Below, in pieces: positions 3,337 to 25,717 of a DNA stretch of 27,543 bases. The stretch is taken from IMG/VR virus record IMGVR_UViG_3300000576_000013, positions 2,386 through 29,928 of that record. The stretch is one strand, 5' to 3'. The stretch comes from a virus. The number at the start of each line of letters is the position of its first letter. The stretch's first letter is position 1. Below the pieces are notes generated by a model. That model searched no databases, was not told the origin of the DNA, and was given only the letters and a program-made list of their open reading frames with translations. Position numbers and translations under genes: made by a program.

Positions 3337-3999
3337 TTAAATAAAATCTGGTTTGATTGGCCAAACAATATCTGTTGGGAAATCTTCTTGTTGAGGGACA
3401 TCAAGAAGATCTTGTCTATATGTAGCTATTTCTTGTTTTTGTTCGTCTGTGAATGAGTCCCATCTTAAAGGGTTTAGAACAACGACATCTAGTTCTGCTA
3501 ATAGAGAATCTCTTTTATCTCTTGAATCCTGTTTTTTGAATTCAAGAACTTCTTCTTCGGTATACTTACCTACTTCAACTAATTTATCATAGCTTTCAGC
3601 ATTTTTTACTGTCTCTGTTTCATCGCATAGATATTGCATTGTTTCCAATTCAAAAACTCCTTCTTTGACAAAGTCATAGAATGTCTTAGGAACTATTTTA
3701 TTGTTTTCAATTTTTTCTAGAAGAGTTCCAGTGGGCTCTGGGTCGTTTTCTTCTGCCGCATTCAACGATAATAATCCTTCATCCACTAGATCTTGCAAAG
3801 GTCTCAACTTCCAATTTGAATCAAACTTTCGGATGTCATCGCCTATATTGACTTGATTGTTGTTAGGCATGGGATTATCTGTCATCCAATTACCTTCATT
3901 CAAGCAGCCTTCATTATTACATTCTTTATAAAGTTCTTTGTAATTTGTAGTATCAACTATATGAATCACTACATTATCTTTTACTTTTACATATTGCAT
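3337..3999 (-). CDS. Tail-fibre assembly chaperone-like protein
   Basis: This is a 220-aa protein. The last 65 residues (RDSLLAELDVVVLNP, SFTDEQKQEIATYRQDLLDV, FPTDIVWPIKPDFI) match the phage tail assembly chaperone pattern: an R-D-x-L-L-A-E-x-D helix, then TDEQ...YRQ.L.D.P, then (F)P....WP.KP. In that family the protein helps fibre subunits fold or trimerise and is usually encoded next to the fibre gene, as here. The N-terminal 150 residues are acidic and not recognised; they may be a fibre-specific part. The start ATG at 3999 follows AAGGAGA (4011-4017), which overlaps the TAA stop of the upstream fibre gene, with an 11-base spacer. The gene is thus co-transcribed with the 470-aa fibre. The family call is good; which of the two fibres it serves is inference. 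Confidence 0.75.
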   Translation of the reverse strand: MQYVKVKDNVVIHIVDTTNYKELYKECNNEGCLNEGNWMTDNPMPNNNQVNIGDDIRKFDSNWKLRPLQDLVDEGLLSLNAAEENDPEPTGTLLEKIENNKIVPKTFYDFVKEGVFELETMQYLCDETETVKNAESYDKLVEVGKYTEEEVLEFKKQDSRDKRDSLLAELDVVVLNPLRWDSFTDEQKQEIATYRQDLLDVPQQEDFPTDIVWPIKPDFI

Positions 4000-4015
4000 T
4001 TATATAATAATCTCC

Positions 4016-5428
4016 TTAATCTGTTCGTCTCCATATACGTATTGTTCTGTTTAGAGGCCTAGTCTCCCCTGAAGTACTTGTTGATGTTCTAGCACCAGTG
4101 CTCCTTCTTGAATCAAATCCTAGTCTCCAACCGCCCCTGTTACCACTGGCACCTATTGTACTAGTGACTCTTGTGCTCGTAGAGAATACACCTCTTGGGT
4201 TTGCAAATGAAGAGTTATTCCATGCGGCGGCTGAGGTTCCTGAACCTATACCACCAGTTAGTCTTTGCATCTGATCTGATTGTAAGTCGCCTTCAAATGA
4301 ATTTGCTCCACCACCTTCTGTTCTAAAGAAAGCACCTTCTGTGTTGAACATGCGCACCCAAGATCCTCCAAAAAGATCACTTGGTGAGTCGGTTCCTGGG
4401 TATTGAACATAAACAGAGTTCACAGGCCAAAAAGCAATTTTAAGCCGTCGAGGTGTTATTACTCTATCAGATCTTATCCCGTCTAGTGTTTCTTGTACCG
4501 TAGCTTCTCTGATGCTGATACTCAAATCTGAAGTTAAGCTACCACCACCTTGAAGACCAGCTCCTGTGTTTATAGCTCTAGATGTTCTAACTATACTTGA
4601 AGGAATCACAATTTCATCTAGGAGACCTGATGTGATTATAGAAGCGTTCAAGTTTGGTATTCTGGCTTCGTTCAAGGTCCCCGTGGCAATTTTAGAGGCG
4701 TCTAGATTTCCGATCCTAGCACTACTCAGAACACCAGATGTGATTTTGTTGGCATTTAGATTTGGTATTCTGTCAGTCCCTAGAACACCCGTCGTGATTT
4801 TAGAAGCATCAATATCACCTATTCTAGCTCCATCTAAAATACCCGTCGTGATTTTAGAAGCATCAATAGCACCTATTCTATCAGAAGAAAACTGTCCGCT
4901 GGTAATAGAACCTGCATCTATTCCGGTGAGTTCGGAACCATCACCTTGGAAAGAGTTTGCTGTTACTTTACCAGCTTGAGATATGGAAACCTGTGGTGTT
5001 GTAGAACCTTCTAATGAAATATCTAAACCGGCAGAAGCTGAAGCAGTAGATGTTTTTATAGACCACCTAGCATTACCACCATTGATCAATCTAAAAATAG
5101 GTTTTTGACCAGCAGACGTTTTCAGATCAAAGATATTAGAAACGCTAGAATCAATTCTTATTGGTGAATTCGAAATAATCTGATCATTGATATCGTCTTT
5201 GTGTTCTATGACATTTACTGAAAGATCTTCAGTAGATGTATGTTCTGAAAGTATAGTATTAGCTGTAAATGTTCCTGTTAGAGTGGAGTTCCCTGCAACG
5301 GTGAAACCAGCACCTGGTCCCGCAAGCATGACATTTTCGTTGACAAGATCAACAAGTTCGTTTGTCTTTGTCAACCAAACTTGGAACGTATCTGATATCT
5401 GAACATTTGTAATGTTTGTGTTACTCAA
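4016..5428 (-). CDS. Tail fibre with 18-residue repeats and collar-type tip (TTG start)
   Basis: This 470-aa protein starts with TTG at 5428. The start is supported by AGAGGA at 5435-5440 (6-base spacer), by the conserved N-terminus SNTNITNVQISDTFQVWL typical of marine T4-like fibres, and by the lack of an ATG nearby. The central residues 175-282 hold about six 18-residue repeats of the form I(T/A)(S/T)GxLxxxRIxxLDASK, expected to form an elongated trimeric shaft. The C-terminal about 130 residues (LFGGSWVRMFNTEGAFFRTE, then a Gly/Ser/Thr-rich loop, then ETRPLNRTIRIWRR) resemble tail-collar or fibre-tip domains, where host receptor binding usually sits. It overlaps the 59-aa gene by 4 bases (TTGA) and is followed by its probable chaperone. 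It probably builds a fibre attached to the baseplate. No exact T4 gene equivalence is claimed. Confidence 0.8.
   Translation of the reverse strand: MSNTNITNVQISDTFQVWLTKTNELVDLVNENVMLAGPGAGFTVAGNSTLTGTFTANTILSEHTSTEDLSVNVIEHKDDINDQIISNSPIRIDSSVSNIFDLKTSAGQKPIFRLINGGNARWSIKTSTASASAGLDISLEGSTTPQVSISQAGKVTANSFQGDGSELTGIDAGSITSGQFSSDRIGAIDASKITTGILDGARIGDIDASKITTGVLGTDRIPNLNANKITSGVLSSARIGNLDASKIATGTLNEARIPNLNASIITSGLLDEIVIPSSIVRTSRAINTGAGLQGGGSLTSDLSISIREATVQETLDGIRSDRVITPRRLKIAFWPVNSVYVQYPGTDSPSDLFGGSWVRMFNTEGAFFRTEGGGANSFEGDLQSDQMQRLTGGIGSGTSAAAWNNSSFANPRGVFSTSTRVTSTIGASGNRGGWRLGFDSRRSTGARTSTSTSGETRPLNRTIRIWRRTD
4583..4906 (-). repeat. 54-bp tandem repeats in the tail-fibre shaft
   Basis: Six in-frame units of 54 bases encode ITSGQFSSDRIGAIDASK-type repeats. 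Two neighbouring units are nearly identical in DNA: the stretches beginning at 4787 and 4841 share 28 consecutive bases and then differ at about one position over the next dozen. This points to a recent tandem duplication or homogenisation, while the other units have diverged. Confidence 0.85.
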
Positions 5429-11032: not shown

Positions 11033-12613
11033 TTAAAAATCTAAGACCAGTTTAATTTGTTCTGTACGTTCATTCGAGCGTTCTATTGGTGTAGCATCTA
11101 CAATGGAAAAAACAATACCCGAACCTATTACATATGGAGAATAGTCAATTGTATTTATATCAAAATTTGAAGCTTCAAAACGCAATGGTTCAGTATCAAC
11201 AAATATTGAAGTGTATGGACCTGTATAATTTATCACAAATATAGAATCTGTTTCATTATCAAGTTGGTGAACTACACCTTTGACTTCTCCTTGTTCCACC
11301 ATATCGCCCACTTCAATGTTCCCCGGTAACGGCCCATCAAAAGTAATCTTAATCCTATTATCAAATGAATCTGAATTAAATGAAGACACAAACTCGGGAT
11401 TTTTGACTACTGAAAATTTGCTATATGAACCACTACTAGGTATTATAGAATCAGCGACACTCGAAACTGTTTTTGACAACCCAATATGCCTCACATACAG
11501 CTCTTTGATAATATTTGATCCATGCCCACCTTCGGGTGATATTATAGGTCTCAATACACATCTTATATCTTGTCTATTCACGTTTGTGGGATCAAAAGAA
11601 ACTGGATCTGCTATTGATACATTCGAAATTGTGTAACCATCTCCATTTGAAAGCATTTTAATAGATTCAATTCTTGTATTTGTTTTGTTGAATATGGGGA
11701 TTGCAGATGCTCCACTACCGTCGCCGATTATTTCAACTTTTGGAAGAATCTCAATTTGATCACCTGCTTCTGGTGTAAAATTAGTAGGAGTCTCAATAGA
11801 AACAAATGGAATCGAATTTACAACACCAGATTCTATTATGGGAAACTCACCTGCTGAGATTGAAGATGATGTCACTGCTTTTTGTATATAAATTGATCTG
11901 TTTATATACTTATTAGGTGATTCGAATATTGGGTTAATTTGTTGAGTCTTAGATAACAAATCTCTGAGAAATATTCTAACAACCCCGGGCCTGACGTCTA
12001 TTGATCTAGAAATACCTGTTATTCGTTCATAACCATTATTTGTAGTAGGATTTTCGACTACTATGTTATACAAGCCCGTATCAGCAATATCTTCTATTTG
12101 TTGATCTCTAAAAACCGGCATTAGGCCTCTTGAAAAGAATTTTCTAAAAGAAGTAATAGATGTAGATGACATGTGCTTCCAAATGTAACCATCACTTAGG
12201 AAATAGATACCATCTTGAACAGATTCGTTGAACTGCGGTTTTTGAGACGACTGAGAACCACCTGCATTTGAAAGACATTTGAATATATGATAATCTCCAG
12301 ATTCTGTTTCTGGCTCGGTAATCACATAAAATGGAGTGCCGAGAAGCTCTTTTGTATCGTCGTACTGAGTATATACTCTATTTTGTATCCAAAATTCTAC
12401 TGGGAGCATAAATGAAAAATCTTGTAAATCGTACTTTATCCCGAATATCGTCTGGTTGGCTACATCTCTCAGCTCTCCATCTGTATTTTTGGAGATAGGT
12501 CTTTCAGTTTCTACGCCGTGAGATCCGAACAACCAAAACTCGTTTTCTTCAATGTTTTTCACGAAGTAATGTTCAATTAGATCGTAGCCAAACGCGTTTA
12601 ATTTGATACTCAA
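11033..12613 (-). CDS. 8: Baseplate wedge subunit gp8 (TTG start)
   Basis: This is a 526-aa protein, longer than T4 gp8 (334 aa). Matches to gp8 include the segment YHIFKCLSNAGG, the SDGYIWKHM motif (T4 has GDGYVWEYL) and the C-terminal ERTEQIKLVLDF (T4 has DQTEEINILFTF). gp8 is a dimeric part of the baseplate wedge that binds gp7 and gp10. The extra length lies between residues about 180 and 490 and looks beta-rich. The start is TTG at 12613: AAGGA at 12623-12627 gives a 9-base spacer, and the next in-frame Met is near residue 69, inside conserved sequence. It follows gp7 after 18 bases. Confidence 0.85.
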   Translation of the reverse strand: MSIKLNAFGYDLIEHYFVKNIEENEFWLFGSHGVETERPISKNTDGELRDVANQTIFGIKYDLQDFSFMLPVEFWIQNRVYTQYDDTKELLGTPFYVITEPETESGDYHIFKCLSNAGGSQSSQKPQFNESVQDGIYFLSDGYIWKHMSSTSITSFRKFFSRGLMPVFRDQQIEDIADTGLYNIVVENPTTNNGYERITGISRSIDVRPGVVRIFLRDLLSKTQQINPIFESPNKYINRSIYIQKAVTSSSISAGEFPIIESGVVNSIPFVSIETPTNFTPEAGDQIEILPKVEIIGDGSGASAIPIFNKTNTRIESIKMLSNGDGYTISNVSIADPVSFDPTNVNRQDIRCVLRPIISPEGGHGSNIIKELYVRHIGLSKTVSSVADSIIPSSGSYSKFSVVKNPEFVSSFNSDSFDNRIKITFDGPLPGNIEVGDMVEQGEVKGVVHQLDNETDSIFVINYTGPYTSIFVDTEPLRFEASNFDINTIDYSPYVIGSGIVFSIVDATPIERSNERTEQIKLVLDF

Positions 12614-12622
12614 ATCACAAAG

Positions 12623-12627
12623 TCCTT
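12623..12627 (-). promoter_or_regulatory. Shine-Dalgarno deciding the TTG start of gp8
   Basis: AAGGA on the minus strand sits 9 bases before TTG 12613, in the short gap after the gp7 stop codon. No in-frame ATG lies between the preceding stop and the conserved N-terminus. Confidence 0.65.
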
Positions 12628-12631
12628 TTGA

Positions 12632-15538
12632 TTATTCTAGTTCTTCTACTATCACATCAGCTCTTAATATATCAATAGATGTATTTATATCACCTTCTAT
12701 ACCCAGTTTAGTGAATAATTTTATACCTGATGGGTGTATGATTTCTTTGAATTCTATTTCGTATTCCTCTTGTGGAATATCTACTGTTAATTCGTAAGAA
12801 AAATCTTGATAGAAAAAACTATCCTGTATTACTTTTTCTTGATTAACATGAGACTTAAATGTTAGCCATTTCCCTTCACTAATGCCTTGACTTCGAGCAT
12901 TTGCAACTCCAACAGCATCTATTTGAGTCGATAAATCATCTATTTGAGTCTCTGTTTGGAAAATACTGCTATCAAGATTTAGATTGAAAAGTTCGTCTAG
13001 TCTACTCTTTTTTTCATTGAATTCTGATAGAGAAAAGACTCCATATATTTGATAATCGGTGTAGTTGTCTTCCATATAAGGAAACATTACAGTTTCGATA
13101 TATATCACTAGTGCTTGATTATCACCTCTCCAAGTATCATCATCTATGTTTTCTATATATTCAAGGAATGAGGTATAATCCTCAAACTCAAATGTTCCGT
13201 TTTGATCCACATCTGCCACAGAAAGTCCAGTTTCAGGTATAGTAGCGATCACAAATAAATCACGAGCTGGTTGCTGACCTTGACCTCCTTCTAAAAAAGC
13301 ATTTGCGATATCTTCTAAATTCCATCTTTTTTTGATGGCTTCTGTTGCGTCAGAAAATCCAAACGTGTCTTTTAGTTCTTCAAATTCAGCTTTTAACTGG
13401 GAAAAAGTTTCCAATTGAGACTCAAGATCATTTATTACAGCCCGTCTTTTTTTAGTTTCTACGATTTCGACTGTAGATCCATCTTCATAGCCGATCCCAC
13501 TGTTGAAAACTTCCACCTCTGTGATTCTTCCGAGTAAGAGCTCTACATTTCCTTCGATATTTGCATTCAATCCAAGAGGCAAACTATTGAAATCTCTAGT
13601 CCTTGATATAATAGTAATCGGTATATTAACTCCGTCCTTGAAAAAAGGCTCGTCTGTCACAAATGATTCAAATGTAGTTTGCTTTACTGTTATAGCATTC
13701 CCTCGGACTGCGACAACCACACCTGTTACAGTGACTTGTTCGGCTGTTCCTTCAAACGTCTCTATTGTTTTTGTTTGATTGATCTTGTCACCTTCAAAGA
13801 GAGATATGCCCGAAGGAATCGATACATTTAGGATTTGATCTCTCAGATTAAATCGTCTCAATAAGTTCTCTATTGGAAGAACAAATACACGACTAGTATT
13901 ATCAATACCGGGGTTGATGTTTTTCAGTGAAGCTATAGAACCAATGGTAAAAGTTTCTGGAACAAAAGCTTCATTCAATGGTGTGTTAAGATCTGGGATC
14001 ACTCCATTTACTTTAGTGCCACTCATTTCCAATAAAGCAGGAGGTACTTCAGAATAGTTATTTGAATCTATTGGAACATCCAGATAGTTTTCAATCAAGT
14101 CGGTAATGATTGTAATGGTTTCAGTGTTTTCTATAGTTCCAATTTCAGCTCTCGCTGAAATGTTTCTAGGAGTGACAAATAATGGAGTTCTGGATATATT
14201 CTGTTCTCGGTCGACTGTTTCAATATTAAAATGATCCTCGAAAAAATAGTCATCTTCCACCTCGGTGACAAATTTTGATATATTATCTTGTCTATCTACA
14301 GTAGCAATATCAAAACCCTTTTTGAAAAAATACCTTTTCGGATCTAGTTCTGGATCTGATTTGTCTAGTTGAACTCTTATCAAGTTTTCTTGTTCTAAGA
14401 TTACAACCCCAAAAGTTTCGCGGCCCAGATCATCTATTTGAACAATTTTTTCATTTGGATCGAACTCAGTGCCGGATGTACTGACTAGAAGAGTTTGTTC
14501 TTCTAGATCCGTATAATCAAGGTATATGCCCATCGAATCAGAATTGGTACCTAATACTTTACCAAAGACTGTAGTATCGGATTTCTCTTGTTGTATCTTT
14601 TCGATTATATTGAAATCGTTTGCTTCGGTATCTGAAAAGAATAATGTCTGATCAGAAACAAGAATTGAAGTGTTCGATGTTGTATAGCCATAAGAACCGT
14701 CTACGATTTGAAAATCAATTTCACCGGTGAGTTCTTGTGTTACACCAGACACTCTACCTTTCGCACCAAAGCCAGAATCTGATTTGATATCGACAATGTC
14801 ACCTATATTATTATTGCTAGTGCTTTGACCTGAAGGTAGTATCTCTACAGATCTCAAAGAACCATATACAGACCCGTAAAAAATTAGCGGGTTCAAACTA
14901 TAAATCTGATCAAAGCCTATAAACTCGCCTTTGACATTGTTAAGAAAAATGATAGGAACATTTGCACCATTAATGTTTATAAAGAACACATCACCAACAA
15001 AAGCAGATGCATTAGAAACATCACCAAATATCCTTTTGTTGACTATACCCTCAAAGTCTTTGGTGTTCGGAGTCGGCACCATTTGAAGGAAGGAACCAGT
15101 CTTCCAAAGAGAATTTGAAGGTTTAAACATATCTTGAGAAGGAAAATATATTTCGGCTTCACTATCAAAGAACAGTTTAAAAAATAGTTCAATTCCTTCT
15201 TTTGAACCCTTTCTTCTATAAAGATCAAGAATGTTCTTAACCAGAAATCTAGTATCAATTTCAAAGAATAGCCCATTCAAAAACTTGTTCTTGAAGAAGA
15301 CAAGCATTCGGTCCAATGTAGAGTCGATATTTCTGTATTCATAGATACGTCTAATATTATATATTGATTGTGCTTTGTTTTCTTCTAAGAATCTATAATA
15401 TGCCTTTACAAGCTCAACAAGTTCCCTACCGTTTTCTCTATAAATTGCAGGAAACTGGTTTTCTACGAATATAGACGTCTTTTTTTGCTCTTCTAATGTA
15501 ACTTCTAAGAGACGATCAGTATCAAGAGTTCTTCTCAT
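12632..15538 (-). CDS. 7: Baseplate wedge subunit gp7-like, rearranged domain order
   Basis: This is a 968-aa protein. Its N-terminal 150 residues (FPAIYRENGRELVELVKAYY, YRRKGSKEGIELFFKLFFDS, AEIYFP) match the segment that lies in the C-terminal third of T4 gp7 (AFCEAYIQYLSDG... STKGIEASYKFLFKVLYNEE). The C-terminus (EIIHPSGIKLFTKLGI) matches the T4 VRFVHPVGFGFIAITLL region. The large N-terminal part of T4 gp7 is absent, and about 700 beta-rich residues are inserted between the two conserved parts. The insert contains a 28-residue tandem duplication (YFFKKGFDIATVDRQDNIS then YFFEDHFNIETVDREQNIS), a helical stretch near residue 700 and a dockerin/EF-hand-like loop at residues 776-787. gp7 connects gp6, gp8, gp10 and gp53 in the wedge. 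The start overlaps the gp6 stop (ATGA). Confidence 0.8.
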   Translation of the reverse strand: MRRTLDTDRLLEVTLEEQKKTSIFVENQFPAIYRENGRELVELVKAYYRFLEENKAQSIYNIRRIYEYRNIDSTLDRMLVFFKNKFLNGLFFEIDTRFLVKNILDLYRRKGSKEGIELFFKLFFDSEAEIYFPSQDMFKPSNSLWKTGSFLQMVPTPNTKDFEGIVNKRIFGDVSNASAFVGDVFFININGANVPIIFLNNVKGEFIGFDQIYSLNPLIFYGSVYGSLRSVEILPSGQSTSNNNIGDIVDIKSDSGFGAKGRVSGVTQELTGEIDFQIVDGSYGYTTSNTSILVSDQTLFFSDTEANDFNIIEKIQQEKSDTTVFGKVLGTNSDSMGIYLDYTDLEEQTLLVSTSGTEFDPNEKIVQIDDLGRETFGVVILEQENLIRVQLDKSDPELDPKRYFFKKGFDIATVDRQDNISKFVTEVEDDYFFEDHFNIETVDREQNISRTPLFVTPRNISARAEIGTIENTETITIITDLIENYLDVPIDSNNYSEVPPALLEMSGTKVNGVIPDLNTPLNEAFVPETFTIGSIASLKNINPGIDNTSRVFVLPIENLLRRFNLRDQILNVSIPSGISLFEGDKINQTKTIETFEGTAEQVTVTGVVVAVRGNAITVKQTTFESFVTDEPFFKDGVNIPITIISRTRDFNSLPLGLNANIEGNVELLLGRITEVEVFNSGIGYEDGSTVEIVETKKRRAVINDLESQLETFSQLKAEFEELKDTFGFSDATEAIKKRWNLEDIANAFLEGGQGQQPARDLFVIATIPETGLSVADVDQNGTFEFEDYTSFLEYIENIDDDTWRGDNQALVIYIETVMFPYMEDNYTDYQIYGVFSLSEFNEKKSRLDELFNLNLDSSIFQTETQIDDLSTQIDAVGVANARSQGISEGKWLTFKSHVNQEKVIQDSFFYQDFSYELTVDIPQEEYEIEFKEIIHPSGIKLFTKLGIEGDINTSIDILRADVIVEELE
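14165..14332 (-). repeat. 28-residue tandem duplication inside gp7
   Basis: Two adjacent 84-base units encode YFFKKGFDIATVDRQDNISK... and YFFEDHFNIETVDREQNISR.... The unit starts lie at 14332 and 14248. Twelve of the first 19 residues are identical. The unit resembles a beta-hairpin repeat. Confidence 0.75.
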
Positions 15539-17325
15539 TTGTCTCTTTCTTTCCTAATGTTCATTGTTACATCTCTATCTTTCAGAACCAGTACCTTTCT
15601 TTTTGGTGATGTGACATTTTTATCTGCTGTGTTTACTGAAACTCTAATGCCAGGGCTTTCATAAGAATCCACAATAAAATCTGATAGTTTTACAACGCCT
15701 CTTTCGTAGTCGACAGTCCCCGCATCGCGTTTTATGATTTCAACTCTTCCTAGACCTCTGTCTCTTGCGTTTGTGATATTGATCACCCCCAAACCGTTAT
15801 CCTCAAGGATTGCATTGGAACCATTGAATACAAATACACTGCTTCGAACAAATGAATTGTAGCTTTCTGTTCTGTTTACCCGAGCAAACCCACATGGCGT
15901 CTCAAGAGATGTTCCAAAGTCGAACGTTGGGCTTTCTGACCTTTGAAACTCTGGTGTGTATAATATATATGGAGTTGCTGCAATCGTGTTATTCACGATT
16001 GCAGGATTAGACTGATCGATCAATGATGATACTCTTGAGATTTCAAATGCTGCTCCAAATTTGTTCATATTATTCTCATTGTACTCTTTCAACAACCGTC
16101 TCAGATCTTCTTCTATAGAATCTTTAGATTGACTTGTAAGCTTTGAATCATATATAACATTAACATCCAACTCGATATACAGAAACTCAGGTGGTACAAA
16201 TATTGGCTGAATTGCAATCGGAGTCTTGTCTCTTAAATATTCTTCATATCTCTGTATTGCAATTTGTGAAAGACCTCCTTGTAGATTTACAGAAATCGCA
16301 ACCTTGCCAAATCGAGGCGGGTCTAGTTCATCACCACCTATCACAGAAACATCCTGTATTTCATTAAATCTTTGCTTAAGTAAAATCTCATAATCTCTTT
16401 GAGTGACAGCTCTTTCTTGAACTTGAATTGATCTTGGAGCAAAGAACTTTGTGTCGGATAATGACTCCTTTTCCGCACCTCCAGTCGCATCAGAATCCGT
16501 GCTAACTGTAACATTTGGAAGAAAATTTGTTCTAAACCGACATGCTCCATTTGCTTCTGGTCCTGACGTGATTCTGTATATCACAGTAACCCGAGCATCT
16601 ATCTCGGGATTTTTCCCAAATCGGTTGTTACCAAAAAGTATCTCGTAAGTTTCATCAAAACTTGGTTCTATGTAAAAAACAGGATCATCTGTCTGGACTC
16701 CAAAAATATCATTACGAAACGTATATTCGATTAAATCGACGGGTTGATCAAAATTTTCAAACACTTTGATGCTAGATGTATCTATGTTTCTGTTTATCAA
16801 TCTGACAGTTCTTCTTTCATCAGAAAAGAAGAACGATTCTGATATGATCTCACCTTCAAAAATCTCAATACCATCGCAAACATAAACACCCCCTTGTCTT
16901 CTTGCAATATATGTTTCGTTTGTATAGAAGTTGAATCTACTCCCAGCTGCTGTAGTCGTAAATCTTGTCCCTTCTGGAACAACAATTGTTGAATCTTCAT
17001 TGTTAGGATCTGATATAGTAATGTTGACAACTGCCTTTGCAGACTTTGCAGATCTTGGTAGATAGTTCAGTTCTTTTGCGTGTGATACAACAGAGTTTTC
17101 AAGCTGTGCACTATCTAGAAACATCTCAGAGATTGCCATGTTCGTATAAAAGTTATTCTGATATGTATTGTACGCTAAGACATCAAGAAGAACTGACATG
17201 TTAGAACCTTCAAAGTCGATGTCTCTAAATCGACCTGATGTATCATTTCTAAGAAACTCTCGAAGCTGATTCTTTGCTTGAAAGAAATCAAGTTCTGTGA
17301 TTGGCAATACTGATTTTGTTGGCAT
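15535..17325 (-). CDS. 6: Baseplate wedge subunit gp6
   Basis: This 596-aa protein is close to T4 gp6 (660 aa). The N-terminus (GRFRDIDFEGSNMSVLLDVL, then AYNTYQNNFYTNMAISEMFL and SVVSHAKELNYLPRSAKSAK) is the characteristic gp6/baseplate-J-type signature. The central part (VTQRDYEILLKQRFNEIQDV) has the family's ALTREDYE-like motif. gp6 forms the inner ring that holds the six wedges together and rearranges on contraction. The ATG at 17325 lies 3 bases after the gp25 stop, and the 3' end overlaps gp7 by 4 bases. The gene order gp25-gp6-gp7-gp8 fits wedge assembly. Confidence 0.93.
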   Translation of the reverse strand: MPTKSVLPITELDFFQAKNQLREFLRNDTSGRFRDIDFEGSNMSVLLDVLAYNTYQNNFYTNMAISEMFLDSAQLENSVVSHAKELNYLPRSAKSAKAVVNITISDPNNEDSTIVVPEGTRFTTTAAGSRFNFYTNETYIARRQGGVYVCDGIEIFEGEIISESFFFSDERRTVRLINRNIDTSSIKVFENFDQPVDLIEYTFRNDIFGVQTDDPVFYIEPSFDETYEILFGNNRFGKNPEIDARVTVIYRITSGPEANGACRFRTNFLPNVTVSTDSDATGGAEKESLSDTKFFAPRSIQVQERAVTQRDYEILLKQRFNEIQDVSVIGGDELDPPRFGKVAISVNLQGGLSQIAIQRYEEYLRDKTPIAIQPIFVPPEFLYIELDVNVIYDSKLTSQSKDSIEEDLRRLLKEYNENNMNKFGAAFEISRVSSLIDQSNPAIVNNTIAATPYILYTPEFQRSESPTFDFGTSLETPCGFARVNRTESYNSFVRSSVFVFNGSNAILEDNGLGVINITNARDRGLGRVEIIKRDAGTVDYERGVVKLSDFIVDSYESPGIRVSVNTADKNVTSPKRKVLVLKDRDVTMNIRKERDK

Positions 17326-17328
17326 ATT

Positions 17329-17772
17329 TTACCTTACTCTATCTATGAATACGTCAATTGACAGTGGATCTTCTCTATTCTTCACATAGAAATAAATGGT
17401 TACTTGGATACGATTATCATCATACAAAGAGGTTACATTTATATCAATAACAGATACTCTTGGTTCAAAGTTATTTATCACATCTCTTACACGTTCTTCA
17501 AGAATCTTTAGAGTGGTTGGTGTTGCGTTTTCAAATAATGAAGCTCGAACATCGGAACCAATATTTGGCTGCATCAATCGCTCGCCGCGGTCAGTCAAGA
17601 TGAGATTCTTCAGTGATTCTTTAATTGATTCTTCATTTGTCCGAAGAGCCAAATCAGCTGATATTGGGTTGACTGTTAAGTCTTTATGGAAGTCACTATA
17701 TAAAGTTCTTTTCTTCCGAAGAGGTGAAATTGTTGGTATTGGGTTGAAAGGATCGTTGAGTGTTCTTACCAT
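17329..17772 (-). CDS. 25: Baseplate wedge subunit gp25
   Basis: This is a 147-aa member of the GPW/gp25 family (T4 gp25 has 132 aa). The core (NLILTDRGERLMQPNIGSDV, then LFENATPTT) and the EPR motif at residues 103-105 (NNFEPRVSVIDINV) are diagnostic. gp25 anchors the sheath initiator and binds gp6 and gp53; type VI secretion TssE is a relative. I chose ATG 17772, with AGGA at 17783-17786 and a 10-base spacer. The longer frame from 17871 would overlap the M15 peptidase coding sequence by 92 bases and add non-family residues. The gene starts 7 bases after the stop of the 905-aa gene. Confidence 0.93.
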   Translation of the reverse strand: MVRTLNDPFNPIPTISPLRKKRTLYSDFHKDLTVNPISADLALRTNEESIKESLKNLILTDRGERLMQPNIGSDVRASLFENATPTTLKILEERVRDVINNFEPRVSVIDINVTSLYDDNRIQVTIYFYVKNREDPLSIDVFIDRVR

Positions 17773-17779
17773 GTTTGTG

Positions 17780-20497
17780 TTATCCTGTTTTTCCGCCGTT
17801 TGGTCCGCGTAGTGAATAATAGTTGAACCTACCTCCGGAGTAGTTATACCCTCTGGTATCCACGTGAACAAAACTGTTATATGAAATGAGACCGGTAAAT
17901 CCTGCTTGATATGCTAGATTCATAAATCTTATTTGATCGGAACGGCTGGATATACCTCCACAATCAAATGCCTTTCCCGCCATGTGATATGAGTTTCTAG
18001 CTCCACCTACTGACCTGTTTGCTTGTGGATTTCTATAAGCACTATTTATCTGTATCTGCCTACCCCAAGCCCTAGCAAGAGCAAATAACTTTCGCATAGA
18101 ATCTTCATCCACACCGCCATAAGGTTTTATTAGAAATCCAGCAGGTCCTGTTATTGCTCTTGCAGTACCTGGTGTTAGTGGTGCATACTTTACTTCTCTA
18201 GTTCCGGCAAGTGATTCTTCAAACGTAGGAAACTGATAATCAGATGGTAATGGTGGTAATACTCCAACAGAGATCCCAGCCCCTGGATCAATACTTCTTT
18301 GACCTGCTGCATTTACGAAAGGTGATGTTATCGTTGCGTCAATACTTCCTGCTTGTTGCATTGCCGCCAATCTCGTCTGAGTATCATAACGAATAGCACC
18401 TGCTCTAACAGCTCTCAATGTGGTGTTATTTCCAGTGCCAGCAAGCAACCTGTTTGCTGCTTGAAAGTTATTGATCATTTCTTCAATTGGTTTCGTGGCA
18501 TCTTCGTATATTCTTTCTATTTCTCCAGCCATTTTACAAAATCTTAATGCGACATATTCCACTTCTTCTTTGTTCTTCTGTCTGAACTTTTCTGATGATT
18601 GAGCGATCATCCCTTTCAATGAATCCTTCATTTCTTCTGTTACGGCATCACTTGCAGCATTTTTAGCAATTGCAATCAAGCCAGCCATTTTAGCATAACT
18701 AGATTGCATGTTGAAGTGATATCCATTGTTTAAAGTTTCGGGTGAAAACATCTCTGCCTTGGACTTCAGGTTGGCAGCAGCTTGATCAACAACAGAAAGC
18801 AATTGATCAGCTGTCTGATCCAAAACACCGACGGCTGCAATACCCCGAATTCCATTTTTGATTGATCTCACCAAATCAATCAAGTCTGTTTGCAACAGTT
18901 TTGGAGCTTCTGCCGAAAGTTCTAATGCACCCGTAAACGATTCTTCAAGTGATTCCTTGTGTTTGTCACTGATTTCTTTTGCCTTAGGCTTATCATCTAC
19001 AGCAACCTCTTCTGCCTCTTCAAGAGCATCTTCAACTGTCTCACGATATTCGTCTTCGTTTTCAGCAAAGTCTCTGAAAATATCTTCTACTGCTTCACTA
19101 CCGAGATCTACGATCTGATCCAATTGCTCAAAAAGACTTTGAATATCAACTGGTTTTAAGCCGCCGACCAATGCTTGAATAGATGAAAGCAACCCCGATG
19201 CTGTAGATATGATTTCTAAAATCTTGGACAAGCCAAAATCTCCCGCACCGGGGCCCGCACCTAAGTTGTTTGCGACCGATGAAAGATTTTCAGCAATATC
19301 ACCAACCTTGCTATTTGGTTCTTGAGCCGATGGAAAATCTATAAAATCACTGAAAGCAGAAGAGTTGGCATTCAAATGTGGTATGAATATATTATTCACA
19401 TAAGATTCCACATCAGTTGTTGCGGTGTTGTCAATATACGTTTGTAGTGCATTAGCATCATCATCGTCCATCACCCCATCTTGATTTATATCCCCGAGTG
19501 GTTTGTTAGTGGATTGCAAAATTGCTTGAAATCGATTGTCCTCAGCTTCTATTGCATTTCGAATCAGCTCAAAGTTCCAATTGATTGATAATGAACTTTC
19601 AGCTTGTGTATCTCCATTCCCCATCACTGCACTCAAAACATCCTTAAACTGCATGATTATACCAAATGCAGATGCCAAAAGACTGAATGCACTTTGAAGA
19701 TCTGAAATGATATTGACTGAGTTTTCTTGTGCTTTTTGCATCAACGAGATCAGCTCTTGAACATTTCCTAGAACTTCACCCACATTAGGATTGATAAGCC
19801 CAAGCACGTTTTGATAGTTTTGAAGGAACTCAGATGACGGCCCGCTCAAGTCTCTTTGAGCCTTTACAGGTGCAAATATGTCTTCTAATAGAGAACAGAC
19901 AGAACCCATGATACTGGAACCAATGCCGAGTGAAGACAGAAATCCTTCTAAGAGATTCAGAATGTCAAATGTATTGGTTTTTACATTGTTTGCAAAAAGT
20001 CTTGGATCAAACCCATTTTGAGTTATGAAAGTTTTAGTCTCAGCCGATGAGATAGTCCCTGACAGAAGTCTTTGATTCGTGCTCGGAAATAACGAACCAA
20101 ATGATCTAAAAGAAGACGGACGGATCTCTTTGAGAGTTTCTAAGACAGTTTCTTCTGTAGTGTTTGGAAACAGCTGTCTGTTTTCGTCAACAAAATCAAC
20201 AACATCTCCAACTTTATTGATTCTTGTTCTTGCAAATTCAGTGGAAAGTTTCTGGGGTATTATTCTTTCTGCAAGCCTTCTTTTGACGGAAGGTGTGATT
20301 GTTTTTGTTTTTGCAATGCCATTTTGTATATTCTTGTAGTTTCTTATTTGTCTATTCAAAACTCTTGTATTGAAGTTGAGAATGATCGTATCTTCTTCAC
20401 TTTGATCACCCAAAGGAAGAAAGTTCAGTTCCCCTGTAATCTGCTCAAGACGATTGATAAGATTTTCTTCGTATTTGCAATCTATAAAATCTGGCAA
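17780..20497 (-). CDS. Structural protein with C-terminal M15 zinc peptidase domain (TTG start)
   Basis: This is a 905-aa protein. The last about 107 residues form an M15-type D-Ala-D-Ala peptidase domain: SYHMAGKAFDC gives His838 and Asp845, and FVHVDTRG gives His878, the expected zinc ligands (HxxGxAxD...HVD). Such enzymes cut peptide cross-links in peptidoglycan. Residues 180-300 are hydrophobic/helical. Residues 336-347 form a dockerin/EF-hand-like loop (DINQDGVMDDDD). Residues about 480-540 are very rich in Glu/Asp/Ala and likely helical. The start is TTG at 20497, directly after the gp5 stop, with AGGAGA at 20503-20508 and a 5-base spacer. The position between spike and gp25 suggests a virion protein of the hub region, probably helping the spike through the wall. 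T4 has no direct counterpart. Confidence 0.8.
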   Translation of the reverse strand: MPDFIDCKYEENLINRLEQITGELNFLPLGDQSEEDTIILNFNTRVLNRQIRNYKNIQNGIAKTKTITPSVKRRLAERIIPQKLSTEFARTRINKVGDVVDFVDENRQLFPNTTEETVLETLKEIRPSSFRSFGSLFPSTNQRLLSGTISSAETKTFITQNGFDPRLFANNVKTNTFDILNLLEGFLSSLGIGSSIMGSVCSLLEDIFAPVKAQRDLSGPSSEFLQNYQNVLGLINPNVGEVLGNVQELISLMQKAQENSVNIISDLQSAFSLLASAFGIIMQFKDVLSAVMGNGDTQAESSLSINWNFELIRNAIEAEDNRFQAILQSTNKPLGDINQDGVMDDDDANALQTYIDNTATTDVESYVNNIFIPHLNANSSAFSDFIDFPSAQEPNSKVGDIAENLSSVANNLGAGPGAGDFGLSKILEIISTASGLLSSIQALVGGLKPVDIQSLFEQLDQIVDLGSEAVEDIFRDFAENEDEYRETVEDALEEAEEVAVDDKPKAKEISDKHKESLEESFTGALELSAEAPKLLQTDLIDLVRSIKNGIRGIAAVGVLDQTADQLLSVVDQAAANLKSKAEMFSPETLNNGYHFNMQSSYAKMAGLIAIAKNAASDAVTEEMKDSLKGMIAQSSEKFRQKNKEEVEYVALRFCKMAGEIERIYEDATKPIEEMINNFQAANRLLAGTGNNTTLRAVRAGAIRYDTQTRLAAMQQAGSIDATITSPFVNAAGQRSIDPGAGISVGVLPPLPSDYQFPTFEESLAGTREVKYAPLTPGTARAITGPAGFLIKPYGGVDEDSMRKLFALARAWGRQIQINSAYRNPQANRSVGGARNSYHMAGKAFDCGGISSRSDQIRFMNLAYQAGFTGLISYNSFVHVDTRGYNYSGGRFNYYSLRGPNGGKTG
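17783..17786 (-). promoter_or_regulatory. Shine-Dalgarno deciding the gp25 start
   Basis: AGGA on the minus strand lies 10 bases before ATG 17772, at the end of the 905-aa gene. It favours the internal start over the ATG at 17871. Confidence 0.55.
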
Positions 20498-20498
20498 C

Positions 20499-23400
20499 TT
20501 AATCTCCTAATCTTCTAATTTGATTGCCGCCAATTGTGACAATATCATCTTCTCTGCTATCTATGGGTGTTGATTGTATTTGAACTGACAATCCTTGTAT
20601 TTGTTCGCCTGACCTCAGAGTTTCTATATTACCGTTTGGCAGTTGAACAAGAGCTCTTTGATTACCTGGAGCTCCACTTATTCCCAATAATAAAAAATCT
20701 GATGAAGATACCGCAGGGGTGCCCAATTCAACTCCAAGTGAACCTGTAGAAGCACTTCCAAAATCTTGAGCAAATTCCATACCTTGATCTCCAATTATGC
20801 CGTCTGAAATCTTATTTCCCATGTCCTTGGGATCTGGCGAGCTTGGATCGGGTGGTGTTGGTTGCCCGCTAGGGTCTGATTTGGGGGCATCACCTTCTGG
20901 CTGAGGACCGCCTGTCGCGCTCCCTGGCGGTGTTGCATCCGTTGCTTTTGTAGTCGGTGATTCTTCATTATTATCTCCACTTTCTGCCTCGTCAAATTGT
21001 GCTGGTTCTATAATCTGTTTTGTTTCTACTTCATTTCCTGAATCTGCACCCGTACCCTCAGAAGCTTCGTTTGCACCACCGTTAGCCAATTGAACAATAT
21101 CATCAATGAAAACAGTAGAGCCTCTAATATGAGCATTTGCACCCGAAAGTCTCGCATCCGATCCCGCCTTTAGATTCAAAACAGCACCAGCATCGACATA
21201 TCCAGCACCTCCGGATTTAAGATCAAACTCAGATTCACCTTCAATCTTCACGTTTTGACCCTTGACATTGACATCATTAGATGCTTGCACAAACAAGTCC
21301 CCTCCTTCCGAATCAAATGTCACGTCTCCTGTAGCACCAATATTTGCGTCTCCCCCATCAGCCTTAATGTTGACATTCTGCGAACCTCTGATGTACATAT
21401 TCCTAGATTCTATGCCCATGTTATCAGCTGAAAGCAGATTCAAGCTTCCAGATTCGGAACCGATAAGCATTTCACCCTTTGACTTCAGGTTGAGTGTGCT
21501 TTCTGAATTGAACGATATCGACGATTCTGTTGAGTTGAATCTTATTGCGCCCGCCGATTCAACAGAAACAGTTCCTTCGTTTGCTTTTAGAAATAGATTT
21601 TCTTCCGGATTCATATAGACACTTCCTTCAGACTTCAGATGCATGCTGCCCTCCTGAGAGTGAAGATACAACCCCTTTATGCCAGTAATGTTCATGTCTT
21701 CTTGTGCACCAAGTCTTATTGACTTTGATTTCATGTCAATTGTTTCACCGGAGTCAAAATAGATGTGTTTTCCGGTGCGGATGTTCAAGTTTTCGACATT
21801 TGATTCAATACCAAGAGAAGCACTTCTGATGTCAGTCCTATCCGCACCATTCAACTCAATCCTTCTTGCTCCACCTATTTGAATATTCCCATGGACAATC
21901 TGCTTGTAGTTTCCTTCAATCTCTTCTATTTTATCTCCCTTCACAAGAACATGACTGTCACCTTCAATAGTGACGATATTATTACCACCGATATAGACGT
22001 GATGGTTCCTATCGTTTACATGATAAGCATCACTCATGTTTTTGTGTGTGGTGCTTGTACCTGTGATCTGTATATATGAACCATCGCGATGCCATATCAT
22101 GATTCTTTCGCCACCGGGCGAATCGTCTAGTTCGATTGAATGGCCAGAGGCGGTTTCTATTACTCTGTTGTATGGATATCTAGCCGAATATCCCGATGGA
22201 GGTTCATCCCATGTCGTGGTGCATGCAGGATCCGCTGACGGTGTTGCATAGCCACTATAAGGTTCGTTTACAGTTCCTTCTATTGGTCCTGATGAATCAT
22301 CTAGTTGGATCAGCTGATCTCTAAGTTCTGCTATTTCTTGTTGAAGTTCTTCTATTCTTTCTTGTGTTTCTTCGGTTCTTGGTTGTGGCCCGTTGATCAA
22401 TTCTTCAAGTTCTGCTTCTTTTTCTCTTATCTGTGTTCTGATTTGATCTGCTCTACTAAATCTCTGTTCATCTAATTGTGCTTGTTGAACTCTATCGGGT
22501 TGTGAAGGATCTTCAAAGAGTTGGGGTCCTCCTTGTTGCTGCGAAAAATCAAGACCTTGCGCGTTTTCTATGTTTCTAAAAACTGAAGAAGTAGATTCTG
22601 CTCTTTTTGCAAACTGTTGTGCAGTATCAGCTTCCGAAATGGCAAATCTAGAATCCGTGAAATATGGCCTAAGATTATTTTGAGTAAAATATCTTGAAGC
22701 CTCTACCGGATCACTAATATTTCTGAATACATCAAAACTAGAACCTCCAGACCATTCTCTTGACAATTCTTGAACTAAAAAAGAATAGTTTGCTTCGTCA
22801 CTTCTGGGGTCCAAGTTTCTTGATGAAGAAAAAGATTCGAAGTTATCTCTTCTTGTGCCCGTCCATTGTAGCCAGCCAGCACCACCTCTTCCTGCTATGG
22901 GAGCAATTTCCTGAAAAAATCTAAAATTGCCTGTTTCCTGTAAAATATTTCCCGCCACGGCAGAGGCAGCCGCAGGTGTCATGTTCAAATCTCTCTTAAG
23001 TTGCGCTGCAATGTTTGTTGCTTTGGTCACTCCATCACCCGGTACTGTAAATCTCCCTCGACCCACATCACCTGTCTCACCAATGTCATTGCTCCAAGCA
23101 TTACCATTGCCTACAGCATTATGACCAAATGCACAACCACCTGCAATCGGAATGTTTCTAACACGATTTACTTCCAATGAGTCATTATATGTCTCATTCA
23201 AAAACTCACCAGTTGCTAATCGTGACATTGGGGACAGCCCAAGATCTCTTGGTCTTGAGCCTTGTGATTCTCTGTCATAGTTTTCAGCAGGAACAGACCC
23301 CCAGCCAGTTGTCGCTGGATCAACCAACTCAGAAGCTTGTGCTGGAATCAGACCAATGATCATTGGCTGCTGGGCATCTCTACCATCAATGAAGAAACCG

Positions 23401-23615
23401 AACACCCAAGCATTCAATGGTGGTGGTGTGAAGTTCACATCATGATTTCCAATGATTAATGTTGCCCAAGGCAAGTCTTCGGTTGGTATATCCTGATTCG
23501 AACCATGAACACCAAATGCACGAACGCGAACACGACCTTCAGCACGAGGGTCATTACGATCTTCAACAACACCAACAAAAAACATTGGTTGAACAAAACC
23601 TAGTCCACTATCCAT
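20499..23615 (-). CDS. 5: gp5-like central spike with OB fold, tail lysozyme and beta-helix
   Basis: The protein has 1038 aa from ATG 23615; T4 gp5 has 575. Residues 1-94 are the gp5/VgrG OB fold (GRVRVRAFGVHG, PMIIGLIPAQ). Residues about 195-345 are a phage-tail-lysozyme domain (AVAGNILQETGNF with probable catalytic Glu227, then GWLQWTGTRRDNFESF), not the T4 lysozyme type. Residues 373-437 are a strongly charged coiled coil. Residues about 490-845 are a long beta-helix rich in Gly/Asn/Ser/Ile alternation, starting with the typical HSIELDDSPGGERIMIWHRD. Residues 848-935 form an acidic and Pro/Ser/Thr-rich linker, and residues 970-1038 a separate small beta-rich domain. It should sit on the gp27-like hub, puncture the outer membrane and digest peptidoglycan. 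ATG 23615 lies 1 base after the hub stop. An upstream ATG at 23660 is rejected because it overlaps the hub gene and lies before AAGGGG. Confidence 0.9.
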   Translation of the reverse strand: MDSGLGFVQPMFFVGVVEDRNDPRAEGRVRVRAFGVHGSNQDIPTEDLPWATLIIGNHDVNFTPPPLNAWVFGFFIDGRDAQQPMIIGLIPAQASELVDPATTGWGSVPAENYDRESQGSRPRDLGLSPMSRLATGEFLNETYNDSLEVNRVRNIPIAGGCAFGHNAVGNGNAWSNDIGETGDVGRGRFTVPGDGVTKATNIAAQLKRDLNMTPAAASAVAGNILQETGNFRFFQEIAPIAGRGGAGWLQWTGTRRDNFESFSSSRNLDPRSDEANYSFLVQELSREWSGGSSFDVFRNISDPVEASRYFTQNNLRPYFTDSRFAISEADTAQQFAKRAESTSSVFRNIENAQGLDFSQQQGGPQLFEDPSQPDRVQQAQLDEQRFSRADQIRTQIREKEAELEELINGPQPRTEETQERIEELQQEIAELRDQLIQLDDSSGPIEGTVNEPYSGYATPSADPACTTTWDEPPSGYSARYPYNRVIETASGHSIELDDSPGGERIMIWHRDGSYIQITGTSTTHKNMSDAYHVNDRNHHVYIGGNNIVTIEGDSHVLVKGDKIEEIEGNYKQIVHGNIQIGGARRIELNGADRTDIRSASLGIESNVENLNIRTGKHIYFDSGETIDMKSKSIRLGAQEDMNITGIKGLYLHSQEGSMHLKSEGSVYMNPEENLFLKANEGTVSVESAGAIRFNSTESSISFNSESTLNLKSKGEMLIGSESGSLNLLSADNMGIESRNMYIRGSQNVNIKADGGDANIGATGDVTFDSEGGDLFVQASNDVNVKGQNVKIEGESEFDLKSGGAGYVDAGAVLNLKAGSDARLSGANAHIRGSTVFIDDIVQLANGGANEASEGTGADSGNEVETKQIIEPAQFDEAESGDNNEESPTTKATDATPPGSATGGPQPEGDAPKSDPSGQPTPPDPSSPDPKDMGNKISDGIIGDQGMEFAQDFGSASTGSLGVELGTPAVSSSDFLLLGISGAPGNQRALVQLPNGNIETLRSGEQIQGLSVQIQSTPIDSREDDIVTIGGNQIRRLGD
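20503..20508 (-). promoter_or_regulatory. Shine-Dalgarno deciding the TTG start of the 905-aa gene
   Basis: AGGAGA on the minus strand overlaps the last codons of gp5 and sits 5 bases before TTG 20497. There is no in-frame ATG for about 195 codons after it. Confidence 0.75.
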
Positions 23616-23616
23616 A

Positions 23617-25083
23617 TCAAAATCCCCTTGGATTGTTTTGGTCGAAGTTAGAAAAATCAAACCGTCTACTTACTTCGCTCCAATCTCGTTTGATTAGAGT
23701 GTATGTATTATGCATTTCTTCGTGCTCCATAATATAAGTTACTGATCTGACTATATAACTACCAGATAATCGTTTATTTTCTTCAAATGTCCCTGACTCG
23801 TTATCATCGGCAAATACAAACTTTTTTACTGATAAGTCTATTATGTCACCAGCACTGATATCAAGTCTCCCCGGGCCTTTAGCAGTGACAGTGATGTTCG
23901 AAATATGCTTAGAGTATGCCTGTCTGTTCGAAATGATTTCAGCATAACGAGTAGCAGCTTGCATTGAATTCTCACCAGACTTTTCTTCGGGTGTGTAGTT
24001 TTGAATCACAAGCCATTCCTTTTGAACATCTTGTTCACCTCTATGAACAGAATTGATGAAGTTTTTAGTGTGTCTGTCATCCACGACTTCTTGTGATGGC
24101 TTGACATCAAAATATCTATTCCGCTCCTTGAAATAATCATACTGATTTAGTTCGGGGTCTAGCAAGTTTAGTCTACGCGACAAAATATCCAGTTCGTATA
24201 CTTTATTTCTATATGCACCATTATAGATATCGTCGAAGCTATTCAGTCTTCGAGTATTTTCAAGCACTTCTATGTTATCTCGTTGAGCTTCAAAGTATTC
24301 AAGTGTATTTGGAATGGCGTCCAAATAAGTCAAATCAAAAATACGGTCATCGTCTTGTTCGGCGAGTTCAAACAGTCGTTCGTCTGTGACGTAGTGGTAT
24401 GACTTGAAGTTTTCAAAGAAACGAAAAGTGCAAGAAGGGCTATTATCAGAATAGGAACGCTTGGCCAAAAATGACATTGCCTCTTCTGGTCTCATTTTAG
24501 GAATCCAACAACGAATGACATCATCAGTTTCTTCTATTTCAAGACCTTTGACCAAATCCGTTGGTATGGTTCCTATTTTTTCTGGACCACCATAATATTC
24601 ATTGAACAATTCCCACACTATGTCAGAGACTTTCTTATCTTTGAACGATCTTATAATCTCATATGTACCCGCAACAAATGATTGATACGATATAAAATGT
24701 ATATCATATGTCACCGCATCGTTGACTTCCTTTGTTTGTACGTTGTCAATCTTATAGATATATCCAGCGAACCTGAATGGTTCTGAAACTTTGCCTGTAT
24801 CAACACCTCCATTTTCATTTATCATTTTCGAATCTGCTATTTCAAAAATAATCAATTCTTCACCTCGAAGTGGATCTCTACCTTCATCATCATCACCATC
24901 GAGAAGACCAACGGAATCCAAAAGTCTTGCTGAACCGAAAATGGTTTCGCTGTCAATTGACGTATTCAGTGTAATTGCAGGTATTAGAGCAGTAACGTCA
25001 ACATCACCAATGTTGGAAAACGATGATGTGATAGTCGCTTTTTGTAGATTGTAATATGTATGGTTGACAAAACTTTGGCTCAT
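23617..25083 (-). CDS. 27: gp27-like baseplate central hub protein
   Basis: This 488-aa protein has the hub layout of the gp27/gpD/VgrG N-terminal type. A first barrel-like part holds PLRGEELIIFEIAD (residues 71-84) and FAGYIYKIDNVQTKEVND (105-122). A helix-containing part follows (DKKVSDIVWELFNEYYGG, 149-166; WIPKMRPEEAMSFLAKRS, 193-210; CTFRFFENFKSYHYVTDERL, 218-237). A C-terminal barrel includes GPGRLDISAGDIIDLSV and GSYIVRSVTYIMEHEEMHNT. In T4 the gp27 trimer binds the gp5 trimer and continues the tail tube. The gp5-like gene follows directly, which supports the call. Primary sequence similarity to T4 gp27 is low, so this rests on motif pattern and context. The ATG at 25083 overlaps the stop of the 83-aa gene (ATGA). 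Confidence 0.78.
   Translation of the reverse strand: MSQSFVNHTYYNLQKATITSSFSNIGDVDVTALIPAITLNTSIDSETIFGSARLLDSVGLLDGDDDEGRDPLRGEELIIFEIADSKMINENGGVDTGKVSEPFRFAGYIYKIDNVQTKEVNDAVTYDIHFISYQSFVAGTYEIIRSFKDKKVSDIVWELFNEYYGGPEKIGTIPTDLVKGLEIEETDDVIRCWIPKMRPEEAMSFLAKRSYSDNSPSCTFRFFENFKSYHYVTDERLFELAEQDDDRIFDLTYLDAIPNTLEYFEAQRDNIEVLENTRRLNSFDDIYNGAYRNKVYELDILSRRLNLLDPELNQYDYFKERNRYFDVKPSQEVVDDRHTKNFINSVHRGEQDVQKEWLVIQNYTPEEKSGENSMQAATRYAEIISNRQAYSKHISNITVTAKGPGRLDISAGDIIDLSVKKFVFADDNESGTFEENKRLSGSYIVRSVTYIMEHEEMHNTYTLIKRDWSEVSRRFDFSNFDQNNPRGF
23624..23629 (-). promoter_or_regulatory. Shine-Dalgarno deciding the gp5 start
   Basis: AAGGGG on the minus strand sits 8 bases before ATG 23615 and overlaps the last codons of the hub gene. 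It selects this ATG over the in-frame ATG at 23660. Confidence 0.8.
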
Positions 25084-25331
25084 GGACGAAGTGACCTTTT
25101 GAACTCTTCAACAACTTGGTTTCGATAGATTTTATCAATCAATAGGATGTTTCGTTTGTTTTCGTTCTGCTGTTTTTCGTAATCATAAAGACGAACAGCC
25201 TTGAAATCTTCCGGAATGATTTCTCTGATGACAATCCTTCTTCCATTTTCAGTCAATAGAATGCTCTCGTCTTCTTTTCTTAGAAAAAGTGTTCTGAACG
25301 ATTCAGGTGAAATTCGTACAATATCTACCAT
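25080..25331 (-). CDS. Small 83-aa protein of unknown function in the baseplate operon
   Basis: I do not recognise this protein. It is charged (many Arg, Glu, Lys) with no membrane segment or signal peptide. The first half looks like short beta strands (ESILLTENGRRIVIREIIPE), and the second half is probably helical (YDYEKQQNENKRNILLIDKI). ATG 25331 follows the gp53 stop by 2 bases, and the TGA overlaps the hub ATG as ATGA. The tight coupling on both sides supports a real gene. Because it lies between gp53 and the hub, it may be a minor baseplate component or assembly factor, but that is inference. Confidence 0.8.
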   Translation of the reverse strand: MVDIVRISPESFRTLFLRKEDESILLTENGRRIVIREIIPEDFKAVRLYDYEKQQNENKRNILLIDKIYRNQVVEEFKRSLRP

Positions 25332-25333
25332 TT

Positions 25334-25717
25334 TTAGTCATCAACCTCTCTAAAATAGTATACAATATTATCTGTTCTTGTTTCATCCTGACCCCAACGA
25401 AGAACATCAAATCCAGTTCTCCCAGAAAGTTCCGAATACTTGTCAATGAAATACTGATCAAATTCAACGTCACTCATCGGCCATTCATAATATGGATCTG
25501 TGATGTTGTTTGCGAGAAGAACTAACCAAGTATCGTCAACAGAACCATAATAGAGTCTTGCAATATCTTCTGGTTTTTCACCTTCTCTGACTGTGAATGG
25601 CAAAAAGATATACGGATCTTTCAGAACAGAGTCTCGAATCTTGCTCCTGCGAGTGATATTACGAACTCGCTTGTCCTGATACTGAATCAGTGGATAGTTT
25701 GTAAAATATCTTGACAT
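25334..25717 (-). CDS. 53: Baseplate wedge subunit gp53
   Basis: This is a 127-aa protein of the gp53 family (T4 gp53 has 196 aa). A LysM-like segment at residues 41-80 (VREGEKPEDIARLYYGS, DDTWLVLLANNITDPYYEWP) is the family's diagnostic region, equivalent to T4 KGSPRPEELANAIYGNPQLY and VLLMCNDNYDPYYGW. gp53 completes the wedge and joins neighbouring wedges around the hub. The shorter length comes from a truncated C-terminal part. The ATG at 25717 follows AGGAAA with a rather long spacer. The gene lies 13 bases after gp48. Confidence 0.92.
   Translation of the reverse strand: MSRYFTNYPLIQYQDKRVRNITRRSKIRDSVLKDPYIFLPFTVREGEKPEDIARLYYGSVDDTWLVLLANNITDPYYEWPMSDVEFDQYFIDKYSELSGRTGFDVLRWGQDETRTDNIVYYFREVDD

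Follow-up and report, generated by a model that had tools for sequence, protein, structure and literature searches.

The stretch of DNA analysed here (27,543 nucleotides, hereafter the window) derives from a virus record of IMG/VR with a length of 29,928 bases. Profile matches placed a T4-type tail gene cluster on its minus strand, extending from position 26732 down to 11033, with the genes in the order gp48/tail tube cap, gp53, gp27-like tail protein, gp5, a gene coding for a 905-aa protein, gp25, gp6, gp7 and gp8. The same arrangement is found in the Emdodecavirus Sinorhizobium phage phiM12 (gp48, gp53, gp27-like, gp5, M15 peptidase, gp25, gp6, gp7, gp8), in which the 'peptidase' gene occupies the slot of the 905-aa protein.

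The 905-aa protein (17780..20497, minus strand), flanked by gp5 and gp25, is a virion protein with a C-terminal M15 peptidase, assigned by this gene order and by Pfam Peptidase_M15_3 (E = 3.5e-17; 62.9 bits, cut-off 23.2). Members of its family in relatives range from about 510 to 970 aa and carry long helical or hydrophobic stretches N-terminal of the peptidase. A separate tape measure was not identified in the window, and the 905-aa protein may take on this function as well. The second protein considered here, a gp7-like baseplate wedge protein of 968 aa (12632..15538, minus strand), was assigned by its matches to PHROG 17744 (E = 2.9e-110) and Pfam Baseplate_wedge, by its relatives in phiM12 and by the gene order gp25-gp6-gp7-gp8 as in phiM12.

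The listed start of the gp25 ORF (17329-17871) lies too early, as relatives start at the position corresponding to MVRTLNDPFN (about 17772), and with this start the overlap with the gene of the 905-aa protein disappears. The window's gp53 (25080-25717) is distributed over two reading frames, a 127-aa ORF corresponding to PHROG 232 positions 1-126 and an 83-aa ORF corresponding to positions 151-192, whereas the close relative L001 has a single 180-aa ORF; this may represent a real split, a programmed frameshift or an assembly error. Furthermore, the tail lysozyme domain of the window's gp5 (20499-23660) is a Phage_lysozyme2 domain (E = 7e-13), and gp5 of L001 (2124-4808) shows a weak SLT-transglycosylase match (E = 0.002) at this place, so this domain appears to have been exchanged among near relatives.

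Anatomy of the module

Each of the two proteins contains a calcium-type loop at the place given by the original prediction, namely DINQDGVMDDDD at residues 336-347 of the 905-aa protein (19457..19492, minus strand) and DVDQNGTFEFED at residues 776-787 of gp7 (13178..13213, minus strand). The shared module around these loops had been estimated at about 45 residues, which proved too short; it comprises about 90-100 residues, including an N-terminal helix (INWNFELIRNAI in the 905-aa protein, KKRWNLEDIANA in gp7). It covers residues 303-391 of the 905-aa protein (19334..19600, minus strand), as delimited by HMM and alignment, and residues 736-838 of gp7 (13040..13348, minus strand), as delimited by BLASTP, HMM, alignment and a loop-masked search. 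Its elements are a W(N/D)[LF]ExI helix, a linker, the loop, an exit helix and a long helix (I[FM][FI]P.L..N), represented in the 905-aa protein by the helix WNFELIRNAI, the loop, the exit helix and the long helix YVNNIFIPHLNAN.

The loop follows the pattern D-x-[ND]-x-[DN]-G-x-hydrophobic-x3-D. Among ten copies, D at positions 1 and 12 is kept in all, D or N at positions 3 and 5 in eight each, and position 8 is hydrophobic throughout; a loss of the acidic residues in both proteins was not seen among the homologues. Every one of the ten copies has a single loop, the second element being devoid of an acidic loop. We infer that the loop binds calcium.

In the AlphaFold2 (AF2) model of the 905-aa module most positions reach a pLDDT of 86-96, with one of five models being good (mean 65 versus 39-47), and the gp7 insertion was modelled with a mean pLDDT of 79 (86-93 for the loop and the helices following it). 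The helices come in the same order in both models, an exit helix from loop position 10 onwards and then the long helix, and the loops are not placed in unrelated folds, but the models are not fully independent, since the alignment used for gp7 contained copies from the 905-aa family. Directly before the loop, both predict a coil or a short strand and no entering helix. In gp7 the module is located between two long helices, predicted at residues 691-726 and 837-884, which probably form a stalk.

Homology of the two segments

A single BLASTP comparison of the 905-aa segment with the gp7 segment of the window resulted in E = 3e-5. A profile of the 905-aa family, built from four copies (window, L001, L003 and L011), detected, among 2442 ORFs, the gp7 of the window (E = 2e-10) and, when applied to further gp7 relatives, blindly recovered the previously unseen gp7 of L073 (E = 7e-10). 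In the opposite direction, the gp7 profile matched the 905-aa copies with E = 1e-6 to 3e-4, and the profile-profile comparison of both families (hhalign) gave P = 7.5e-10. The best match among reversed ORFs, which served as control, had E = 1.7.

The loop pattern alone was present in 1-3% of the shuffled versions of both proteins (1.2% for the 905-aa protein, 2.7% for gp7) and was observed in 6 of the 226 long ORFs of the first relative set, where 2.6 were expected. Considering that the loop by itself can thus arise by chance, the claim of homology rests on the surrounding sequence. The frequency in the shuffled versions is the argument for convergence, i.e., for two unrelated segments that share an acidic calcium loop by coincidence. 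However, after the 12 loop residues had been turned to X on both sides, the gp7 of the window (E = 0.0017) and of L073 (E = 0.004) were still matched in the correct position, and a loop-masked profile in the opposite direction found the copy of L001 (E = 0.003) as well as one in the unrelated phage L113 (E = 0.0075). Convergence is also at odds with the common helix order around the loop in the two AF2 models; largely refuted by the masked searches, it is extremely improbable. On the sequence evidence, the two segments of the window are homologous beyond the loop, and the prediction that two different proteins of the baseplate region share a module with a loop of calcium type was borne out.

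In L004, L006 and L010, the gp7 copies matched the 905-aa profile weakly (E = 0.0006-0.04) and not at all with the loop masked; they are counted as members largely on account of the loop and of their position, and if they were not homologous, the alternative placement described below would be supported by fewer phages. The gp7 copy of the window is nearer to that of L073 and to those of the 905-aa family than to these three, which suggests that the gp7 site may have been filled repeatedly; the module tree itself has poor support.

Pfam and PHROG scans of the bare window segments returned nothing useful, and a tblastn search with the module as query among 50,697 annotated phages gave no credible match, the matches in S-CAM7 and an Arthrobacter phage (E 6-8) being attributed to chance. 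The module profile likewise had no match in 399 bacterial genomes of one phylum, but as this set had no positive control, the result carries no information. The gp7-module profile also matched an 1806-aa protein weakly (E = 0.01-0.03); as the match lacks a calcium loop, this protein was not accepted as a bearer of the module.

Placement among relatives

Relatives were gathered from IMG/VR by gp6, which lies between the two genes, and by gp7. Placement was counted in seven near relatives, the window included, in which both proteins are complete; L002 and L008, truncated inside the gene of the 905-aa protein, stand outside this count. The module is located only in the 905-aa protein in L001, L003 and L011, only in gp7 in L004, L006 and L010, and in both in the window, with at least one copy being kept in 7/7. 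Whole-record searches found one copy per record, also in a record of 208 kb.

In gp7 the module is held by an insertion at about residues 698-872 (12923..13447, minus strand). This insertion of roughly 150-175 residues is absent from gp7 of L001, L002, L003, L008 and L011, and is present at the same site and with the module in L004, L006, L010 and L072/L073. Correspondingly, the 905-aa family members of L004, L006 and L010 lack a stretch of about 130 residues. The insertion site is fixed in gp7 and in the 905-aa family alike, and the module is an add-on, inserted in both proteins (roughly 130-175 aa). On the gp6 tree its presence changed at least two times in the 905-aa family and at least three times in gp7.

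The original prediction included calcium-dependent docking between the two modules, by which the 905-aa protein would be bridged directly to gp7. The presence of both copies in the window, encoded by genes of one baseplate cluster, fits such a bridge, but six of the seven near relatives counted above have a single copy, and as the copies fail to co-occur, mutual docking is unlikely. The gp7 of T4 is located peripherally, as a wedge protein in contact with gp6, gp8, gp9 and gp10 (PMC3004832), and a contact of gp7 with the central 905-aa protein is therefore not expected, although the baseplate of the window may differ. Taking these points together, we regard the bridge as very doubtful. As near relatives carry the module in one protein or the other, both sites probably serve the same job as alternatives and are not the halves of a lock. 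A common partner for both copies, also part of the original prediction, is possible and fits this alternative placement.

Outside the near relatives, the module profile had 0 matches in the phiM12 record, which shares the gene order, and the module is absent from most of the more distant relatives; the insertion sites hold other, unrelated sequences in relatives. The last two observations are also what favours the main rival explanation, according to which the module is a neutral or purely structural filler of surface loops that folds with calcium and has no partner. Against a filler stands that none of the seven near relatives with both proteins complete is without the module at both sites, and that the second helix (YIET[VI]MFPYME.NY) is conserved between gp7 of the window and of L073 despite the divergence of the module as a whole to 40% identity. 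We consider the filler possible, if unlikely.

A third carrier is known from L113, in which a module copy was recovered blind (E = 2e-8) in a 380-aa structural protein (3971-5110) adjoining two SU10-type adaptor proteins. The module stands there after a conserved N-terminal part (PHROG 28581), which is common to the relatives of this protein in 023Pt_psg01, HTVC027P and CRP-902, all of them without the module. The loop of L113 has T at position 3 and S at position 5 and may bind calcium weakly.

The gp7 of the distant relative L036 (1442 aa; 11711-16036) has two separate dockerin-like loops, at residues 367 and 743, which are located in other regions of the protein and match Pfam Dockerin_1 at E = 6e-4, below the cut-off.

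Dockerin likeness and putative role

When the module profile was compared with all PDB sequences, the leading matches were dockerins or dockerin-bearing proteins (E = 2e-8 to 1e-3), restricted to the loop and the exit helix, and for the loop of the 905-aa protein the leading matches were dockerin repeats. Like the module, the type I dockerin repeat (Pfam PF00404; CelS Doc48S, 1daq/2mte) has a GD[IV][ND]xDGxxxxxD loop, at once followed by a helix ending in YI, with the same spacing, and the module contains the residues of a dockerin-type calcium loop-helix (F-hand) repeat (D1, D/N3, D/N5, D12). By its sequence, the loop-helix is thus dockerin-like. This specific resemblance, together with matches of several relatives' copies to Pfam Dockerin_1 (PF00404), all below the curated cut-off, would be expected of a true dockerin with a phage or host cohesin as its partner. 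Type I dockerins, however, consist of two tandem repeats, whereas the module has one, with extra helices before and after it, and the window segments did not match PF00404 even at E = 10. Cohesin (PF00963) was not found in 15 phage records, most of them fragments. Fold searches of the models against PDB and BFVD yielded nothing significant; Foldseek listed dockerins among the matches, but at E = 4-9 and with a TM of 0.37-0.50 to the target, a result to be read in light of the limited model quality. Since it has a single repeat, stays below the Pfam cut-off, matches no known fold significantly and comes without a cohesin in the 15 records, the module is not a dockerin by membership, and plugging into a cohesin appears highly unlikely.

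The EF-hand shares with the module a 12-residue loop with D at positions 1, 3, 5 and 12, the hydrophobic position 8 and an exit helix from position 10. It differs in the entering helix directly before the loop, in the pairing of hands and in E at position 12, where the module has D; lacking an entering helix, the module is not an EF-hand. Of the 'dockerin/EF-hand-like' label given originally, the dockerin-like loop-helix therefore stands, and identity with either family does not. Two phage tail-sheath chains (9g8s_g and 31eu_G), with a borderline match to the module profile beyond the loop-helix (E about 0.05), were treated as chance. In the open-access texts searched, a dockerin-like repeat in a phage baseplate was not found.

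Exchangeable accessory domains such as the Ig-like ones (Big2, PKD) are small folded modules that are inserted in unrelated phage virion proteins and are present or absent among close relatives. The module differs from these beta sandwiches in being, as modelled, all-helical and based on a calcium loop. Its occurrence in either protein, or its absence, among related viruses argues for a movable part, with which phages seem to equip their tail machinery, rather than for a lock joining both proteins.

The explanation we favour, and consider fairly probable, is that both segments represent one mobile module of about 90-100 residues that tailed phages insert in different virion proteins, where its most likely role is that of an accessory contact domain stiffened by calcium. 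In this domain, one calcium loop of the dockerin type (F-hand) and its exit helix would be packed between the N-terminal helix and the long C-terminal helix, and upon binding of Ca2+ the loop would fix these helices and thereby create a surface. This surface may touch a neighbouring virion protein or the surface of the host, and in gp7 the module would be held by the long helices on either side of it, which probably make up a stalk. A more far-reaching version, which we regard as speculative and rather improbable, would see in the module a previously undescribed family of half-dockerin-derived domains, shuffled by phages between virion proteins and acting as a calcium lock after lysis, i.e., flexible in the low-calcium cytoplasm during tail assembly, and folding and fixing the baseplate in extracellular calcium.

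Overall, a small module with a calcium-type loop moves between three unrelated virion proteins, namely a tail peptidase, a wedge protein and, in another phage, a protein linked to SU10-type adaptors. The two alternative sites of the module in near relatives offer a concrete example, open to testing, of how modules are exchanged within baseplates, and the module itself is a candidate explanation for the calcium dependence of some phages.
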